From NCBI RefSeq assembly GCF_027944115.1, contig NZ_JAPJZI010000001.1, forward strand, positions 4,340,001-4,404,000: a stretch of DNA of 64,000 nucleotides. Reading direction: 5' to 3'. Shown here one piece after another: positions 33,786 through 54,796 of this stretch. Every line of letters begins with the position of its first letter. The first letter of the stretch is position 1. The stretch is from Hoeflea prorocentri (lineage in GTDB: Bacteria > Pseudomonadota > Alphaproteobacteria > Rhizobiales > Rhizobiaceae). The translations under genes and the position numbers were made by a program. Below the pieces are notes generated by a model. That model worked only from the letters and a program-made list of their open reading frames with translations, searched no databases and was not told the origin of the DNA.

Positions 33786-34529
33786 GTGGGCGCCGATGTA
33801 TATACCCTTGATCTGCCGCTTACGTTTATCGCAGCGGTCGGGTTGATCGTTATGGCCGGCTCGATTGTCCAGTCGGGCCTGGGAATGGGATTTGGTCTGA
33901 CCGTCGCCCCGCTTTTGGCATTGCTCAATCCCGAGCTGGTGCCTGCACCGACTCTTTTTCTTGGTATGTTGACGGCAGCCTGGGGCGCCCTGGCTGAGCG
34001 GGCGCATATTCGCTGGAACGAGGTTGCGGTGGCGACGGGAGGGCGGCTTATCGGCGCGGTGTTGGGTCTCGTCCTGTTGTTGATCGTCTCGACTGCATCC
34101 GGTTTCAGTCTGCTGTTTGGCGCAATGGTTCTTGTCGCGGTGGGGCTGTCGGCCGCCGGGCGATCCCTGCCTTTCAACTGGGGCTCGCTGGGATCGATGG
34201 GTTTCATATCCGGAGCGATGGGAACGATCACGTCTGTTGGCGCGCCGCCGCTGGCCCTTGTCTATCAGGGACGCGAGCCCGATGCGGCACGCGCCACCCT
34301 TGCGGCCTTCTTTGCCATCGGCTGCGGCATTTCACTTGCGGGCCTTTACTGGGCCGGTTGGGCAGGATGGCGCGATGCCGCGCTGGCGCTGGCCATGTTG
34401 CCGCCCATGTTCGCAGGCCTTTGGGTCGCCCGTTTCTTCAGACTGCGGTTCTTGCGCTGGTATCGACCATGGTTGCTCGGCGTTGCCGGGATGGCCGGAA
34501 TTCTGCTGGTTCTGCGGGGGCTGACGTGA
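33786..34529 (+). CDS. TauE/SafE-family sulfite or organic anion exporter
   Basis: The 247-residue protein has about seven to eight transmembrane helices and the TauE/SafE repeat architecture with SGLGMGFGL and GAMGTITSVGAPPLALVYQ-type loops. Members export or import small sulfur-containing anions such as sulfite or sulfoacetate, but substrates are known for only a few. The start is GTG 33786, preceded by GGAAGG. Its TGA overlaps the GTG of the next transporter gene (GTGA), so the two are translationally coupled. Confidence 0.85.
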   Translation: MGADVYTLDLPLTFIAAVGLIVMAGSIVQSGLGMGFGLTVAPLLALLNPELVPAPTLFLGMLTAAWGALAERAHIRWNEVAVATGGRLIGAVLGLVLLLIVSTASGFSLLFGAMVLVAVGLSAAGRSLPFNWGSLGSMGFISGAMGTITSVGAPPLALVYQGREPDAARATLAAFFAIGCGISLAGLYWAGWAGWRDAALALAMLPPMFAGLWVARFFRLRFLRWYRPWLLGVAGMAGILLVLRGLT

Positions 34530-35446
34530 CCCCGGTACTTTCCGTTCTGCAGTTTGCCGCGCGCCACGGGCGCTGGCTCCTTGTCCTTGGGTTGGTCGCC
34601 GGTGTCGCGTTGCCAGGCATTGCCGCCTTCATGGAAAAGCAGCTTCCGATAGCCGTGGCGCTGCTGTTGTTCTTCTCCGCTTTGCGTGTCGGGCCCCGGC
34701 AGGCTTTTGGCGCGACACGGGATATCGGCCAGTCTCTCTACTTTGTTCTGGCCCTGCAACTGGCCTTGCCGATCATTTTTGTTCTAGTGCTGATTGCAAC
34801 GGACTGGCGGAGCCCGCTGGCTTTCGGATTGGCGCTGATGCTCGCGGCTTCGCCGATTTCCGGAAGTCCGAGCCTGGCTATCCTGCTTGGCAAGGACAGC
34901 GCGCCTTCGTTACGGCTGTTGATCGCAGGTACGGCGCTGCTTCCCCTGACCACGATCCCGGTTTTCTGGATGATGCCGGACCTGGTTGCCGGCAAAAGCG
35001 TTTTGGGTGCGGCTCTGCGGTTGCTTCTCATCATCGGCATTGCAACGGCCATTGCCTTTGTCATTCGAGGGTTCTTTTTGAAAAATCCCGGTCCGGCGGG
35101 TCTTGGCGCCATCGATGGATTGGCAGCGCTCACCATGGCTATCATGGTTGTCGGGCTGATGGCCGCCGTTCGTCCGGCCCTGGAGAACAACCCCGGCGGA
35201 CTGGCGTTTAACCTCTTTATTGCCTTTGTTGCCAATTTCGGACTGCAGGCAAGCGTCTATCTCATTTTGAAGCGACCCTTGCCGGATCAAAGCGCTGGAA
35301 TCGCGGTGTGTGCCGGTAATCGCAACATTGCGCTGTTCCTGGCAGCCTTGCCGGCTGGCGTCATGGAGCCGTTGCTGCTGTTTATCGGCTGCTATCAGGT
35401 TCCGATGTATCTGACACCCATCCTGCTCAGGCGCTTTTACCGCTGA
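34526..35446 (+). CDS. Bile acid:sodium symporter-like (BASS-type) transporter
   Basis: The 306-residue protein has about nine to ten transmembrane segments. A C-terminal GNRNIALFLAALP motif resembles the conserved GxRNxxL signature of BASS-family transporters. GTG 34526 overlaps the previous stop by four bases; upstream in-frame ATG codons lie inside the TauE-like gene and give non-hydrophobic residues. The substrate is not known. Two coupled transporters of different families in one transcript suggests a shared, unidentified anion. Confidence 0.75.
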   Translation: MTPVLSVLQFAARHGRWLLVLGLVAGVALPGIAAFMEKQLPIAVALLLFFSALRVGPRQAFGATRDIGQSLYFVLALQLALPIIFVLVLIATDWRSPLAFGLALMLAASPISGSPSLAILLGKDSAPSLRLLIAGTALLPLTTIPVFWMMPDLVAGKSVLGAALRLLLIIGIATAIAFVIRGFFLKNPGPAGLGAIDGLAALTMAIMVVGLMAAVRPALENNPGGLAFNLFIAFVANFGLQASVYLILKRPLPDQSAGIAVCAGNRNIALFLAALPAGVMEPLLLFIGCYQVPMYLTPILLRRFYR

Positions 35447-35520
35447 ACCACAGCTTGCGACGAAAAGCGTCGCTGTAGCGGCTGTCTGTTGAACAGATTC
35501 GCGGTAAGCTGCTTGGGTAA

Positions 35521-35697
35521 AGGTTCTTTGCCGCGATTCGCGCTGATAAGCGCAAGTTTGGCAAAGCCAAGAGGGAAGCCGGTGCAAATCCGGCGCTGCC
35601 CCCGCAACTGTAAGCGGCGAGCCTCTCCCAAAAGCCACTGGCCTTGACAGCCGGGAAGGCAGGAGACGGTGATGACCCGCAAGCCAGGAGACCTGCC
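35521..35697 (+). promoter_or_regulatory. Cobalamin (B12) riboswitch
   Basis: The conserved elements occur in order on the plus strand. AGGGAAGCCGGTGCAAATCC (35571-35590) is followed by CTGCCCCCGCAACTGTAAGC (35596-35615), GCCACTGG (35634-35641), GCCGGGAAGGC (35650-35660), and the B12 box AAGCCAGGAGACCTGCC (35681-35697). No T-rich terminator follows directly; complementary arms CCGGGC (35715-35720) and GCCCGG (35744-35749) may form part of the expression platform. Downstream plus-strand genes are a 21-codon leader ORF and a 105-residue unknown protein. Confidence 0.93.
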
Positions 35698-35806
35698 TTT
35701 ACGTGAACTGCAAGCCGGGCGGGGTGCCCCGGAAGAGCGGCGAGCCCGGTCCTGGCCGGCACCTGCGCTTTCTTATGCCCCGTCTCTGCCTTTTGAGGAG
35801 AGACAT

Positions 35807-35872
35807 GTGAACCACATCAAACAAACAGACGATCTTCACAGATGTCCTTCACCCGGCCGAATGGGAGGGTGA
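35807..35872 (+). CDS. Putative 21-residue leader ORF between riboswitch and downstream gene
   Basis: GTG 35807 lies six bases after a strong AGGAG (35796-35800). The ORF encodes MNHIKQTDDLHRCPSPGRMG plus a final Gly and stops at 35872, three bases before the ATG of the next gene. Its last codons run through the hairpin that masks the ribosome site of that gene, so its translation could be needed to open it. It might equally be a non-functional reading frame; no homologue is known to me. Confidence 0.45.
   Translation: MNHIKQTDDLHRCPSPGRMGG
35849..35872 (+). promoter_or_regulatory. Hairpin masking the Shine-Dalgarno site of the 105-residue gene
   Basis: TCACCC at 35849-35854 pairs with GGGTGA at 35867-35872 across a 12-base loop. 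The right arm is part of the GGGAGGGTGAG ribosome site just before ATG 35876. Confidence 0.45.
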
Positions 35873-35875
35873 GCG

Positions 35876-36193
35876 ATGTTTCCCGTACAAGATAGTGACA
35901 TTGGCCGTATCGTCCGCAGGATTGGCCGGCCTGACGGAACCAACATCGTCGCGTTGCGCAAGGACCGGTCGTATCGGCCGCTTTCTGCCGAGGAAGCGCT
36001 GATCCAGTGGATGCTCGACCTTCCAACGGGCGCAGCGATCGACAAAGCGGCGCGATATGCGCTGCGCGTCGTGGATGCGGGCCCTGCCATGTCACCCGAT
36101 GTTCAGCTGTTTTGCGATTATCTGAGGCAGGCCATCGAGGCATCGCAAATACCGGTTTCACCGAACCGGCGCAGGCGCAGGCGGCAACCCTGA
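35876..36193 (+). CDS. Unrecognised 105-residue protein downstream of a B12 riboswitch
   Basis: I do not recognise this protein. It is soluble, without signal peptide or membrane segment. It contains a segment LSAEEALIQWMLDLPTGAAI near residues 37-56, a predicted helix AARYALRVV, and ends with a run of six Arg within RRRRRR near residues 98-103, which could bind nucleic acid or be an unstructured tail. It is the first sizeable gene after the cobalamin riboswitch on the same strand, 178 bases from the B12 box, which is the only hint about its role. It is convergent with the DUF1737 gene. Confidence 0.6.
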   Translation: MFPVQDSDIGRIVRRIGRPDGTNIVALRKDRSYRPLSAEEALIQWMLDLPTGAAIDKAARYALRVVDAGPAMSPDVQLFCDYLRQAIEASQIPVSPNRRRRRRQP

Positions 36194-48791: not shown

Positions 48792-50252
48792 CTAGCCGTT
48801 CCCCTTGAGCCTGATCGCGATATTCTTTGTCTGTACGTAGTTCCAAAGCGATTCGCGTCCCTTTTCTCGCCCATAACCCGATTTGCCGTAGCCGCCGAAC
48901 GGTGTTTCCACCCCACCCGCATACCATTCGTTGACGAAGACCTGCCCGGCCCGCAACCCGGCGGCCGCGCGGGTTGCCCGGTCGAGGTCGGCGGTGAAGA
49001 CGCCGCCGACGAGACCGTAGGGCGTGTTGTTGGCAATGGCGATGGCCTCGTCATCGTCGCTGAATTCCAGAATCGACAAAACCGGTCCGAAAACCTCGTT
49101 ACGGGCAATGTCCATTTCAGGGGAAACGTCGGTGATCACAGTTGGCTGCATGAAATAACCTGGCCGGTTCAGTGCATGGCCGCCGGTTGCCAGGGTTGCG
49201 CCCTGGCGCTCGGCATCGGCGCACATTCCAACCGCCCGTTCGCGTTGCCGCTCGGAAATCATCGCCCCCATATTGGGCCCGAAATCGGCCCGGTTCATGC
49301 CGTCGCCCACCGAGATGCTGTCAGCTAGCACCACAATGGCTTCGGTGAGCCTTCTGGCGATGCTACGATGGGCAATCACCCGAGACATTGCGGAGCAGAC
49401 CTGGCCGGCATTGAAATAAATGCCCCAACGCACATCGTCCATGAAGGCATCGATGTCGGCGTCGTCATGGACGATCGCTGCCGATTTGCCACCCAGTTCG
49501 AGAACGCAGGGGACGATATTTTCAGCTGCCGAGCGGGCAATTGAAATACCAGTGGGCACGGAACCGGTGAAAACGACCTGGTTGATATCCGGATGGGCCG
49601 CGAGCGCCGCTCCGGCCTCCTTTCCATGTCCGCAGACGATGTTCACGGCACCGGCGGGAAACCCCGCCGCCTCAGCCGCCTGGGCCATGAAGCCGTTTGT
49701 GAGCGGATCAAGTTCCGGCGGCTTGACGATGCAGGCGTTCCCTGTGGCAAGCGCTGCCGACAGCGATCGTGCGGTCATCTCCAGCGGGTAGTTCCACGGG
49801 ATGATCTGTGCCGACACGCCAAGTGGTTCGTGGACGGTGAAATCGAAATAGCCGGCGCCCAGCGGGATCGAACGACCCTCAACCGTTTCGGCCTGGTTGC
49901 CGTAATACTCGAAATAGCGGGCCGCTCCCTCGATTTCGAGGCGCGCTTCCCAAAGCGGCTTGCCGGATTCCTTTGTAAGAACCGGTGCAATCTCGTCGAT
50001 CCTCTCAAGTAGGTGATCGCCCATGGCGCGCACCATCCGGCCGCGCTCCACTGGTCTCAGATCGCTGAGCGCGCCGCTTTCATGGCATTGTCTTGCTGCC
50101 CCGACGGCCCGATCGATATCGTAGACATCAGCAAGCGCCTGTTCTGCAATGGTATCGCCTGTTGCCGGATCATTCACGGCAAGCCGCCCGGCCCCACCGT
50201 CGACAAACGCGCCATTTATATAGTTTTGCCAGTAGGGGCGACTGTCAGCCAT
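48792..50252 (-). CDS. NAD(P)-dependent aldehyde dehydrogenase
   Basis: The 486-residue ALDH has the structural N-terminal Rossmann part, IPWNYP with Asn154, ELGGKS with the general base Glu252, and FNAGQVCSA with nucleophile Cys286. A C-terminal FGGYGKSGYGREKG motif completes the core. Substrate specificity is not predictable; betaine-aldehyde or semialdehyde dehydrogenase types would fit the neighbourhood. It overlaps the Rieske gene by eight bases at 50245-50252 and is followed directly by the CMD gene, so it belongs to the leftward catabolic operon. Confidence 0.93.
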   Translation of the reverse strand: MADSRPYWQNYINGAFVDGGAGRLAVNDPATGDTIAEQALADVYDIDRAVGAARQCHESGALSDLRPVERGRMVRAMGDHLLERIDEIAPVLTKESGKPLWEARLEIEGAARYFEYYGNQAETVEGRSIPLGAGYFDFTVHEPLGVSAQIIPWNYPLEMTARSLSAALATGNACIVKPPELDPLTNGFMAQAAEAAGFPAGAVNIVCGHGKEAGAALAAHPDINQVVFTGSVPTGISIARSAAENIVPCVLELGGKSAAIVHDDADIDAFMDDVRWGIYFNAGQVCSAMSRVIAHRSIARRLTEAIVVLADSISVGDGMNRADFGPNMGAMISERQRERAVGMCADAERQGATLATGGHALNRPGYFMQPTVITDVSPEMDIARNEVFGPVLSILEFSDDDEAIAIANNTPYGLVGGVFTADLDRATRAAAGLRAGQVFVNEWYAGGVETPFGGYGKSGYGREKGRESLWNYVQTKNIAIRLKGNG

Positions 50253-51336
50253 CGGCGGCTTCTCTCATCCATTGCTGCAGGACATGGATCGAGTGTTCGG
50301 AATTCACACCCGACGCCGGATCAAGCACCAGCGGACCGGGCTTATAGCCGCGGCTTTTCAGCCCCTTATGGACCGCTTCAACGAGATGGATGTCCTCTTC
50401 GACCGTTGTCTGCCGGTCCTGGACGGCCAGTTGGCGGATGACGTCGGAATCCTCGCCGCCCTTGGTGTACCACCCGCGCCAGACAATTACATGTTCGCTG
50501 TCGATGGCACGCCAGTGATAGGTGTTGAGCACATTGCCGGGATAGACCTGGAATGAAAACATCGGCCAGAGAAACCACGAGGAGTAATCGCCGGCGTGGT
50601 CGTTTGCGGACAAATCCACCGAATAGGTCATCTTTTCGAGATTCTGGCACTGCGTTGTGTGCCTCAGGCAGTAACCCTGCGGCTGGATGTCATAGGTTTC
50701 GGGCTTGATCACGCCATTGGCGAAGGTGTGGTGATTGATCTTGCAGTGATAGCACTCCGAATAATTCTCAACCGAGACCTTCCAATTGCAGTTCTCGGGA
50801 ATCTCCACCCATTCTAACGGTTCGAGTTCGCCGTAATGCGGTACGAAGGCCGCCAGTTCCTCGCGTGCGCCGGGAAACCACTCGTCCATCGGCCGGGCGT
50901 CCGGGTCCAGGTTGACAAAGAGAAATCCGCAGAACTCCTCAACGGACACGGAGGTCAGGCAGATTTTTGTCCGGTCGAAACCGGGGACGGACTTGATATT
51001 CGGGCCCGAGCGCAATTCGCCCGTCAGTTCATAGGTCCAAGCATGGTACGGACAAACAATCAGCGGCGCGTTGCCCTGCCCGCTGACAAGCCTGTGGGCG
51101 CGATGCTGGCAGACATTGTAGTAGCCGCGAATTTCACCATCGCGGCCGCGAATGCAGAACAGGCTTTCGCCGGCGATGTCGCAGGTGATGAAGTCACCGG
51201 GTTTTTTGAGTGCAGAGGCATGGCCGGCAAACTGCCATGTGCGGGCAAGCAGCCCCTGGCATTCCGCACGGAATATGTCGGGATCTGTGTAGTAGCGCGC
51301 ATCAAGCGTTCGGATCATGTTGACAGGCGCATTCAT
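50245..51336 (-). CDS. Rieske non-heme iron oxygenase, quaternary-amine oxygenase type
   Basis: The 363-residue alpha-subunit has the Rieske [2Fe-2S] site Cys76-x-His78 and Cys95-x2-His98 and the mononuclear iron site His197, His202 and probably Asp315. The bridging residue three before His197 is Glu194 (YSECYH), not the Asp of aromatic-ring dioxygenases. A Glu bridge is reported for carnitine monooxygenase CntA and, as I recall, for relatives acting on glycine betaine, choline and stachydrine. An N-demethylase or C-N-cleaving oxygenase for a quaternary amine is therefore inferred. No reductase or ferredoxin gene lies nearby. Confidence 0.88.
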   Translation of the reverse strand: MNAPVNMIRTLDARYYTDPDIFRAECQGLLARTWQFAGHASALKKPGDFITCDIAGESLFCIRGRDGEIRGYYNVCQHRAHRLVSGQGNAPLIVCPYHAWTYELTGELRSGPNIKSVPGFDRTKICLTSVSVEEFCGFLFVNLDPDARPMDEWFPGAREELAAFVPHYGELEPLEWVEIPENCNWKVSVENYSECYHCKINHHTFANGVIKPETYDIQPQGYCLRHTTQCQNLEKMTYSVDLSANDHAGDYSSWFLWPMFSFQVYPGNVLNTYHWRAIDSEHVIVWRGWYTKGGEDSDVIRQLAVQDRQTTVEEDIHLVEAVHKGLKSRGYKPGPLVLDPASGVNSEHSIHVLQQWMREAADG

Positions 51337-51345
51337 CTCGACACC

Positions 51346-52251
51346 TCATTCCTCAGGTTGATAAATTCCCAGTGTGTGGCGGCGTTCATGAAATCGCTCG
51401 ATGTTGGAGATCACCTCGGGCGCTGCATCAGCGATGACAAAGGCCATCAGCGCTTCAAGCAATGCGATGTTGGACACCGATGAGGGGAAGAACTGAGGCG
51501 TATCGGCCGCCACGATAAATGCATGGTCGCTGCCGATCACGATCGGCGAGGCGGGGCTGTCCGAAAGGGCAATCACTGTCAGCCCCTGGCGGCGCGCCAG
51601 GCTGACAGCTTCGACAACTTCCGAGCGATAGGGTTTGCATGTCATGGCGATCAGCACGTCGCCCGGTCCGGCCCGCGCCAGATCGTCAATAGCGACGCTT
51701 CCAGGACGCGGGATCGCCTCGATGGTGTCGACCGCCATGTCCGCCAGATAGGTAAAGTTTCGGGCATTGGAGCTGTTGACGCCGACGCCAAGAACATAGG
51801 TCCTGCGTGAGGCGACGACCGCATCGGCTGCTGCTTTCATCGCCGTGTCATCGGTGGCGGCAAATGTTTCCTCGATATTGCGGATGGCGCTGGCCGCCAT
51901 GTCCGCATAAAGCCGGGCAAGTTCTCCGCCGCGCGCCAGCGATTGCAGCCAGCGGGCACGGTCGGGAAAGCTGACAACGCCTCGCCGGATCTCTTCACGG
52001 AACGGCTCGCGAAAATCGTCATACCCCTCAAAACCGACGGATCTGGCCATCCGCACAAAGGTGTTCGGCTTGACCCGCGCTGCCTCAGCGATTTCCCGAA
52101 TGGAGGAAACGCCCACATCATTGGGGTTTTCCAGCACATAGGCCGCAGCCTTGCGGGTTTCCGGCGTCAGCTCCTCCAGTGCGGCGGAAAGGTTTTTCAG
52201 AACCTTGGTCGGCGCCGAGTACTCTGGGTTTGGTACATTTATATTATTCAT
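51346..52251 (-). CDS. RpiR/MurR-family transcriptional regulator
   Basis: The 301-residue regulator has the N-terminal RpiR HTH (residues about 15-85, SSIREIAEAARVKPNTFVRM as recognition part). A C-terminal SIS sugar-isomerase-like domain follows at about 130-260, with VLGVGVNSSNA and IALSDSPASPI. SIS domains usually bind phosphosugars but some RpiR proteins control amine or amino-acid catabolism. It lies at the head of the leftward operon, 9 bases before the Rieske gene, and is divergent from the rightward operon. A palindrome in the shared 67-base gap is the likely binding site. Confidence 0.92.
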   Translation of the reverse strand: MNNINVPNPEYSAPTKVLKNLSAALEELTPETRKAAAYVLENPNDVGVSSIREIAEAARVKPNTFVRMARSVGFEGYDDFREPFREEIRRGVVSFPDRARWLQSLARGGELARLYADMAASAIRNIEETFAATDDTAMKAAADAVVASRRTYVLGVGVNSSNARNFTYLADMAVDTIEAIPRPGSVAIDDLARAGPGDVLIAMTCKPYRSEVVEAVSLARRQGLTVIALSDSPASPIVIGSDHAFIVAADTPQFFPSSVSNIALLEALMAFVIADAAPEVISNIERFHERRHTLGIYQPEE

Positions 52252-52262
52252 GGTTGACGAGA

Positions 52263-52274
52263 GTACATTTGTAC
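52263..52274. promoter_or_regulatory. Palindromic operator of the RpiR regulator
   Basis: GTACA-TT-TGTAC is a perfect five-base inverted repeat in the RpiR/flavoprotein gap. A half-conserved copy (GTACA-TT-TATAT) lies at 52233-52244 in the first RpiR codons, and GTACA-TT-TGTGC at 55995-56006 in the first enolase-like gene. Confidence 0.55.
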
Positions 52275-52318
52275 GATTAGCCTGTCCACATAATTGTCAG
52301 CCATTTGGGAAGAAACCT

Positions 52319-54796
52319 GTGACAGAGCTAAATCCGGTTTCAGTGCCTTCAACCGCGCGCGTGGTCATTGTTGGCGGCGGCGTGATGGGCTGCGGGCTCG
52401 CCTATCATCTGGCACATGAGGGCTGGACGGATGTCGTTCTGCTGGAAAAGGCGGAATTGACGTCGGGATCGACCTGGCATGCCGCCGGCCAGATCACCCA
52501 TTCGACGTCAAGCTTCGGGCTTGGCAAATGTGTTGATTACAATATCGGGCTTTATTCAGGGAAACTGGAGGCTGAGACCGGTCAATCGGTGACCTGGCAT
52601 GGCTGCGGATCGTTTCGGCTTGCCTATGACGAAGATGAAATGGACTGGCTACGCCATACGCTGAGTGTTGGGCGGTCTCTTGGTTTCAATATCGAGCTGG
52701 TCGGCAAAGAGCGGATCCGGGAACTCCATCCATTTTACAATCTCGACGGTGTGCTCGGCGCGCTGCATACGCCCGATGACGGTCATGCCGATCCGTCGGG
52801 CATCACGCAGGCGCTGGCGGCCGGCGCTCGCCAGTTGGGCGTGCGGATCATTCGCCGTTGCCGGGCAACCGATATCAAGCAGATGCCAAACGGAGAGTGG
52901 CGCGTCTCCTCGGAGCGCGGCGACATCACATGCGAGCATGTGGTCAATGCCGGAGGAACCTATGCGCGCCAGATGGGCGAGTGGAGCGGGCTGCAATTGC
53001 CCATGACCTCCATGACGCATCACTACCTTGTCACCGACACGGTTCCGGAATTTCTGGACCTGGAAAGAGAACTGCCGGTCATCAGGGACGACCAAAAGGT
53101 TTCCGGTTACATCCGCATGGAGCAGAAATCCGGCCTGATCGGTATCTATGAAAAGGAAAACCCGAACACCGTTTGGGAGGATCACTGCCCCTGGGAGGCG
53201 GAAAACGAGCTTTTCGAGGCCGATTATGACCGCATCATGCCGTGGCTGGAAAACGCCATGGAGCGTATGCCTGCTCTGGCGGAACTCGGTATCAAACGGG
53301 AGGTTCACGGCGCCATATCGCATCCGCCGGACGGCAATCCTTTGATTGGACCCGCGCCCGGTGCGCGAAATTACTGGTGCTGCTGCGGTACACAGATCGG
53401 TATCGGCTGGGGGCCGGGCCTGACACGCGAACTGGCGCGCTGGATGGTGCATGGTGCGGCGGATATCTCGATGCGGGATTACGACCCGTGCCGGTTTGGA
53501 GCCTATGCCGACAAAAAATGGCAGGTGACCAAGGCAAGGGAAGACTATTGCCTGAGGCACGAAATTCCGTTTCCGCATTTCAACCGACTGGCCGGCAGAC
53601 CTGTCAAACCCAGCCCTCTTTATGAGCGCCTCAAGGCAAGGGGTGCCGTTTATGAAGAAGTATACGGGCATGAACGGCCGCGCTGGTTTGCAAAGGACGG
53701 CGTCGCGCAAAAGGATCACTATTCCTTCAGGCGCACGGCCGTTGACGACATGATCGAACAGGAGGTCCGAGCGGTCCGTGGTTCCGTCGGAATCATGGAT
53801 ATTTCCGCCTTCACCAAGGTAGAAGTCAGCGGCGCCGGCGCTGAAGCTCTGCTCGACCGTCTGTCGGCAAACAGGCTGCCGCAAAAAACCGGTGGCATCG
53901 TGCTCAGCCATCTTTTGAACCGACGCGGGCGTATCGAGCTCGAGCTGACAATCGTTAAGCTGGCCAAGGAACGTTATTACCTGGTTTGTGCGGCATTCTT
54001 CGAACAGCGGTTGCTTGATCATCTGGAGCGTCACCGCACCGGGGGGAACGTCCTGATCAACAAGCTGTCGGACGATTGGGCGGCGATCTCCTTGCAGGGG
54101 CCCAGATCGCGGGCAGTTCTGGCTGAAAACACCACGGTTCCGTTGGACAATGCGCATTTCCGCTGGCTCACAGCACAGGAAATCGACATTGCAGGCCGCC
54201 CGATATGGGCATTCCGTATGTCCTATTGCGGCGAGCTCGGCTGGGAACTCCATGGACCGCGTGACCATATCCTTGCTGTTTATGATGCGCTTTGGGAATC
54301 GGGCAAGGCTTTCGGTATCGCCAATTACGGCTCGTTCGCGATGAATGCGATGCGGCTTGAAAAAATGTTCAAGGGCGCCGGTGAATTGACCAATGAGGTA
54401 ACGCTGCGGGAAGCCGACGTCATGCGATTTGTCAAAATGGACAAGGGCGACTTCATCGGCAAGGAGGCGACGCAGCAAGGACTTGACGGCGACATGCCGT
54501 GGATTTGCACTTATCTCTCTATCGAACCTGATGGCGTTGTGGACGGGCATGGCGGAGAAGCCGTGTTGCGCGGCGGCGACGTAGTGGGCTCGACCACCTC
54601 CGTTGCCTACGGTCCGACGGTCGGCAAAATCCTTGCTTTTGCCTATATCAAGCCGGATGCCGCCGTGCCCGGCACCGCGCTGACCGTGCTGATTGCGGGT
54701 GAACCACGAAACGCCGTCGTACTTGGTGAGCCGGCTTATGATTCTCAAAACCAACGTCCGCGCACGGAAGCGGCCGTTTCGGAGGCAGCCGAATGA
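52319..54796 (+). CDS. Dimethylglycine/sarcosine dehydrogenase-like flavoprotein fused to a GcvT domain
   Basis: The 825-residue protein has an FAD Rossmann motif VGGGVMG (residues 18-24) and STWHAAG with His54, the covalent-flavin position of dimethylglycine and sarcosine dehydrogenases. The C-terminal half (about 440-800) is an aminomethyltransferase/GcvT fold that in relatives binds tetrahydrofolate and accepts the formaldehyde unit. The likely reaction is oxidative demethylation of an N-methylated amino acid. The start is GTG 52319 with GGGAAG seven bases upstream; an open frame from 52151 overlaps the divergent regulator. It heads the rightward operon and overlaps the next gene by four bases. 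Confidence 0.88.
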   Translation: MTELNPVSVPSTARVVIVGGGVMGCGLAYHLAHEGWTDVVLLEKAELTSGSTWHAAGQITHSTSSFGLGKCVDYNIGLYSGKLEAETGQSVTWHGCGSFRLAYDEDEMDWLRHTLSVGRSLGFNIELVGKERIRELHPFYNLDGVLGALHTPDDGHADPSGITQALAAGARQLGVRIIRRCRATDIKQMPNGEWRVSSERGDITCEHVVNAGGTYARQMGEWSGLQLPMTSMTHHYLVTDTVPEFLDLERELPVIRDDQKVSGYIRMEQKSGLIGIYEKENPNTVWEDHCPWEAENELFEADYDRIMPWLENAMERMPALAELGIKREVHGAISHPPDGNPLIGPAPGARNYWCCCGTQIGIGWGPGLTRELARWMVHGAADISMRDYDPCRFGAYADKKWQVTKAREDYCLRHEIPFPHFNRLAGRPVKPSPLYERLKARGAVYEEVYGHERPRWFAKDGVAQKDHYSFRRTAVDDMIEQEVRAVRGSVGIMDISAFTKVEVSGAGAEALLDRLSANRLPQKTGGIVLSHLLNRRGRIELELTIVKLAKERYYLVCAAFFEQRLLDHLERHRTGGNVLINKLSDDWAAISLQGPRSRAVLAENTTVPLDNAHFRWLTAQEIDIAGRPIWAFRMSYCGELGWELHGPRDHILAVYDALWESGKAFGIANYGSFAMNAMRLEKMFKGAGELTNEVTLREADVMRFVKMDKGDFIGKEATQQGLDGDMPWICTYLSIEPDGVVDGHGGEAVLRGGDVVGSTTSVAYGPTVGKILAFAYIKPDAAVPGTALTVLIAGEPRNAVVLGEPAYDSQNQRPRTEAAVSEAAE

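Follow-up and report, generated by a model that had tools for sequence, protein, structure and literature searches.

A cobalamin riboswitch of Hoeflea prorocentri is followed by a short leader ORF and then by the gene of a 105-aa protein, and this arrangement is best read as a B12-repressed translational relay leading to an undescribed B12-limitation protein that would be made when B12 is low (probability about 0.8). The window analyzed here is a stretch of 64,000 nucleotides of the H. prorocentri genome (contig 1, 4340001-4404000); coordinates are positions in this window, and the features of the riboswitch locus all lie on the forward strand. Cobalamin riboswitches are normally explained by the gene that they control, and those of alphaproteobacteria control uptake and synthesis genes. 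The window riboswitch belongs to the same aptamer family, but the protein presumably under its control belongs to none of the known families of transport proteins, synthesis proteins or B12-independent enzymes, and a protein family without a curated domain follows such riboswitches in dozens of genera.

Riboswitch, leader ORF and hairpins

A full-length cobalamin riboswitch aptamer was identified at 35504-35714 with cmscan (Rfam RF00174; 145.5 bits against a curated gathering threshold of 31.5, E 8e-37), with model positions 1-189 covered. The original prediction had recognized this riboswitch, placing its start at 35521 and thus 17 nt late. It is the best-scoring of the four cobalamin riboswitches in the 5.04-Mb host genome, the other three of which lie ahead of a DUF1636-like gene with transport genes, of a membrane-protein gene and of a cobU/cobW-type operon, respectively (genes named from sequence). 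Pairing between L5 and L13 is an established feature of class I cobalamin riboswitches. A P13-like hairpin, CCGGG-CGGGGTGC-CCCGG, was read from the sequence at 35715-35732 and is present in three congeners; its loop (CGGGG) could pair with loop L5 of the aptamer (CCCCG, 35600-35604), and this complementarity, kept by inspection, makes the two loops a candidate L5-L13 kissing pair.

A leader ORF of 21 codons (MNHIKQTDDLHRCPSPGRMGG) extends from a GTG start at 35807 to a TGA stop at 35870-35872, and its Shine-Dalgarno sequence AGGAG (35796-35800) is separated from the start by a spacer of 6 nt, in agreement with the earlier claim of a 21-codon ORF with a strong ribosome site behind the riboswitch. 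Equivalent leaders of 21-23 codons occupy the same place in three congeners. The leader start is ambiguous, as an ATG-TGA at 35805-35810 overlaps the GTG; the GTG was preferred because its Shine-Dalgarno spacing of 6 nt agrees with the 6-7 nt found for the homologous leaders, which begin with ATG. The overlapping ATG-TGA start-stop could itself influence leader initiation.

Two hairpins were predicted downstream of the P13-like hairpin, from which hairpin 1 is separated by about 50 nt. Hairpin 1 (35782-35804; RNAfold -11.3 kcal/mol, z -2.3) sequesters the leader Shine-Dalgarno sequence and is almost identical across the congeners. Hairpin 2 (35840-35881; RNAfold -19.1 kcal/mol, z -2.95, with only 2 of 200 shuffles equally stable) encloses both the Shine-Dalgarno sequence and the ATG with which the 105-aa ORF begins; the leader stop sits in its right arm, 3 nt before this ATG at 35876, exactly as had been described from the sequence. 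The original prediction was therefore right that the next ribosome site is masked, but it counted one hairpin where there are two and missed that the leader's own site is masked as well; hairpin 1, not hairpin 2, would be the element by which the riboswitch reaches the leader. As a switching step, release of hairpin 1 through an alternative pairing of its left arm with the aptamer segment AAGGCAGGAGACGG was considered but not adopted: with -23.5 kcal/mol (1.3% of shuffles) this pairing is strong in the window, but in the congeners it is no better than in shuffled sequence.

Conservation in congeneric genomes

Homologues of the 105-aa protein were found in three of seven congeneric genomes (46-63% protein identity; 47-64% in the homology search), each preceded by a strong cobalamin riboswitch (129-145 bits), and the homology search detected none in the other four (G002-G005). 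The window and the three congeners have a common gene neighbourhood, in which the locus is flanked by a membrane-protein gene and a convergent DUF1737 gene. The upstream membrane protein, encoded at 34358-35446 in the window (TTG start as called) and found in the corresponding position in the congeners, has no Pfam match.

The whole arrangement of riboswitch, leader, hairpins and protein recurs in the three congeners. The leader ORFs of the four genomes have 21, 23, 23 and 21 codons and encode peptides that share little beyond their ends, and the distances from leader stop to protein start are -3, -2, -2 and +4 nt, in two different frames. By dinucleotide shuffling, the chance that a leader stop falls within -6 to +10 nt of the next start was estimated at 0.07-0.11 per genome; the product of the four probabilities is 6e-5, a value that comes from related and thus not independent sequences. 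The position of the leader is conserved and its peptide is not, as is expected of a coupling device. All four genomes therefore have the geometry of the mycobacterial uPPE2 type, namely a short ORF with a ribosome site behind a riboswitch and a stop codon close to the next start. The translational coupling of leader and protein that had been proposed is supported by this geometry, which is preserved within the genus and recurs across the family where an enzyme gene takes the leader's position, and it remains a prediction drawn from sequence comparison.

The 105-aa protein

The protein encoded at 35876-36193 founds a family whose small helical members follow cobalamin riboswitches. It had been noted as an unrecognized 105-residue protein with an Arg-rich tail, and this description stands; purifying selection on the ORF is indicated by a pN/pS of 0.19 between the two closest congeners (0.39-0.55 for the other congener pairs, in which synonymous sites are saturated). 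Searches of Pfam and NCBIfam with the window protein and 67 relatives gave no credible profile match, including none to a DNA-binding domain, and no cobalamin-binding Pfam family was matched at E<=0.05. Solved structures searched by sequence yielded nothing (best E 0.69), and public genome contigs searched with the window protein alone yielded no relative. Arg-rich tails (RRRRRRR; RRRGGARARR) occur in the subfamily of the window protein and in its nearest relatives, and most other members are without the tail. The predicted structure of the window protein has five helices (mean pLDDT 71), and in that of a Mesorhizobium-type relative a core of three helices is predicted with confidence (block means about 92).

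Identification of the family and its riboswitch linkage

A protein profile of four sequences was used to search for weak relatives in other genera, nearly all of which turned out to lie behind cobalamin riboswitches, and a profile of eleven sequences was then used for the host family, taken as Rhizobiaceae in the broad sense (including Mesorhizobium, Aquamicrobium and Aminobacter), and for the order. At E<=0.01 the latter profile matched 85 of 395 family genomes (35 of 109 genera) and 19 of 297 genomes of the order, belonging to sister families, the weak end of both sets including chance matches. The family core surrounds an invariant Trp and reads roughly E-x4-5-W-[LMF]-x3-P-x2-A-D-x3-A-A, followed by a Leu-rich third helix. 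The window protein has both the W-x4-P ... A core and the same-strand upstream cobalamin riboswitch by which members are recognized.

About 8 kb around each match was scanned with a nucleotide profile built from Rfam-confirmed riboswitches. A same-strand upstream cobalamin riboswitch was present in 68 of 68 members of the first set and, once the window's genus, a second set and weaker matches were added, in 94 of the 96 assessable members. The two members without a riboswitch (L147 and L151) are decayed copies, and one further member at a contig end (L146) stands outside the 96. From riboswitch density, linkage by chance is expected at about 0.3%; among 15 weak chance matches that are not family-like, used as a negative control, none has a riboswitch; and Infernal confirmed 18 of 18 sampled riboswitches in addition to the earlier ones. 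Since only protein sequence went into the profiles, the linkage was not selected for, save that the founding sequence itself had been picked for its riboswitch. The suggestion that the protein is a new B12-related factor, which homologues lacking this linkage would have spoken against, is thus supported. Such near-complete guilt by association makes the family a concrete candidate for an unrecognized component of the response to B12 shortage.

No family members were found in the plasmid collection, and a class-wide search with the window's subfamily gave nothing convincing outside the order, with two weak matches in incomplete genomes. No description of these proteins was found in the open-access literature, which is not proof of absence, and the family, with members of about 65-115 aa that are helical and come from Rhizobiaceae and sister families, appears to be new.

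Genomic contexts

The contexts of 68 members were classified: 34 follow gbcAB (from domains, a Rieske oxygenase, GbcA, and a GbcB-like reductase), 6 follow nrdAB (class I ribonucleotide reductase), 26 stand alone behind a riboswitch and 2 are in other operons. Members linked to gbcAB or nrdAB are the last gene of the operon (40 of 68). Solo members are often located just upstream of metH, and some precede cobF, a receptor-like gene or a BtuF-like gene; L075, L076, L101, L133 and similar loci have a riboswitch and the small gene directly upstream of metH, which encodes a B12-dependent enzyme. Some genomes have two or three members in different contexts. In L022 (G372) and L127 (G406), for example, an nrdAB-small protein-cobF operon lies near a gbcAB-small protein operon, giving two riboswitch operons with two paralogues.

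In 33 of 38 cases the gbcB or nrdB stop codon falls -6 to +10 nt from where the member starts; ATGA-type overlaps account for 12, and the other 5 of the 38 probably result from the scripted choice of start codons. The stop/start geometry is therefore shared with the enzyme operons, and the leader ORF of the window repeats in miniature the arrangement of an enzyme gene before the small protein. The short leader thus stands where the enzyme gene stands in other genomes, a placement that reads as a conserved translational relay. Other solo members follow the riboswitch immediately, with no leader ORF in between. Taken together, relays through a leader ORF or an enzyme gene form a natural series for how a riboswitch may signal to a gene that it does not touch.

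Two further loci are worth recording. L021 (5562-6403) has a riboswitch, remnants of gbcA and gbcB and an intact small gene, reflecting either an internal deletion or an assembly fault (the genome is 81% complete), and L200 (3941-6216, Mesorhizobium) has the order riboswitch-gbcA-riboswitch-small gene, in which the small gene has its own second switch. Both fit a retention of the small protein for its own sake, with the reservation that the L021 assembly is incomplete.

The host genome was searched for the corresponding enzymes, and no close GbcA, no class I NrdA and no riboswitch-linked gbcAB was found. As neither a close GbcA nor a class I NrdA was found there, the protein would be independent of them in this host. 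The window encodes a GbcA-like Rieske oxygenase (35% identical) at 50245-51336. It is part of a cluster at 48792-54796 with an aldehyde dehydrogenase, an RpiR-type regulator and a dimethylglycine or sarcosine dehydrogenase-like protein, which looks like a quaternary-amine catabolism locus and is without a riboswitch.

Proposed mechanism and alternative explanations

Cobalamin riboswitches ordinarily turn B12-independent substitute genes off when B12 is present. On this pattern we infer an OFF switch in the window. When cobalamin is plentiful, the bound riboswitch would allow hairpin 1 to form, which would hide the leader ribosome site and prevent downstream translation. When cobalamin is scarce, the leader ORF would be translated, and the ribosome would melt hairpin 2, end the leader 3 nt before the next ATG and then re-initiate on the 105-aa protein. 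The protein travels behind the switch with gbcAB, with nrdAB, with metH and alone, and is therefore best read as a part of the B12-shortage response: the family would be made either alone, often beside metH, or last behind the B12-independent enzymes NrdAB or GbcAB. Glycine betaine is demethylated by cobalamin enzymes or, in aerobic bacteria, by GbcAB (PMC12478193), and NrdAB is the B12-independent counterpart of the cobalamin-dependent NrdJ (PMC4991794). Members directly upstream of metH, which encodes a B12-dependent enzyme, fit this role less simply. As to what the protein does, our tentative guess, possible but hardly probable, is that its targets are B12-dependent enzymes or cobalamin allocation (MetH, NrdJ) and that it is not a co-encoded enzyme subunit. 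Somewhat more doubtful is the wider idea that the family constitutes a dedicated arm of B12 homeostasis, in which a scarcity-only effector would act directly on B12 enzymes or cobalamin allocation while riboswitches activate B12-independent substitutes.

Alternatively, the protein may assist oxygen-dependent iron enzymes (GbcAB, NrdAB) as an accessory subunit or a maturation factor, with solo copies serving related oxygenases encoded elsewhere. The terminal position of 40 of the 68 members in gbcAB or nrdAB operons and the Rieske oxygenase encoded in the window agree with this, but the 26 solo members have their own riboswitch, the host showed neither a riboswitch-linked gbcAB nor a class I nrdA, and the preceding enzymes, a Rieske oxygenase and a ribonucleotide reductase, are mutually unrelated; we regard this explanation as unlikely. 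The Arg-rich tail could point instead to a nucleic-acid-binding regulator that binds RNA or DNA, for example riboswitch transcripts, and so tunes the B12 regulon. A functional analogue would be NrdS, described as an AraC-like regulator of the Streptomyces nrdABS operon, which is under a B12 riboswitch (Borovok et al. 2006, as summarized in PMC4991794). That operon resembles the loci of nrdAB-linked members in that class I ribonucleotide reductase genes and a third gene are placed behind a cobalamin riboswitch, but, as summarized there, NrdS is a different kind of protein and family-wide riboswitch linkage is not part of the system. The absence of the tail from most other members and the lack of a credible DNA-binding domain match in the profile searches make a regulator of this kind improbable.

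A third alternative concerns the fold, as the protein might be a free-standing counterpart of the four-helix cap found in cobalamin-binding domains (AerR, MetH, CarH type), acting on cobalamin or on apo-B12 enzymes. The N-terminal part of the B12-binding antirepressor AerR is such a cap (PMC9144470), and this cap (7te2 residues 0-83) was ranked 3 in Foldseek (E 2.9) and 2 in VIA (Z 5.1, rmsd 3.0, 72 aligned) for the model of the window protein, while the linkage of the family to metH would also suit this idea. The resemblance is nevertheless weak, limited to one model and not significant: the unrelated chain INTS3 scored higher in VIA (Z 5.3), AerR did not recur with the better model of another member, the window protein is without the cobalamin-binding Rossmann domain of AerR, and the absence of any cobalamin-binding Pfam match tells against it too. 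The similarity falls within the noise expected of helical bundles and can serve as a lead only, and the cap explanation is very unlikely. It is also quite improbable, if less so, that the leader ORF plays no part and the 105-aa protein relies on a ribosome site of its own, or that the 105-aa ORF is not made at all. The solo members placed directly behind their riboswitches would favour an incidental leader, but the leader position, its Shine-Dalgarno sequence and its stop placement are kept in four genomes, the internal site is hidden by hairpin 2, and the 105-aa ORF is under purifying selection. A B12-repressed relay to a B12-limitation protein is thus the reading that we prefer.

Comparison with the mycobacterial uPPE2-PPE2 system

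The closest described system for such a relay is uPPE2-PPE2 of Mycobacterium tuberculosis, in which expression of the downstream protein depends on translation of a short ORF under riboswitch control, through termination-reinitiation at stop and start codons that touch (PMC11260477). The B12 riboswitch, the short upstream ORF and the nearby stop and start codons are common to both, and in the window the coupling itself is predicted. The two differ in riboswitch subclass, in organism and in the downstream protein, which is unrelated, and the PPE2 start is without a Shine-Dalgarno sequence, whereas that of the window protein is present but lies inside a hairpin. In two solo loci of Mesorhizobium (L114 and L123), an upstream ORF of 15 codons with a Shine-Dalgarno sequence reaches the small gene through an ATGA overlap, perhaps an independent leader relay.
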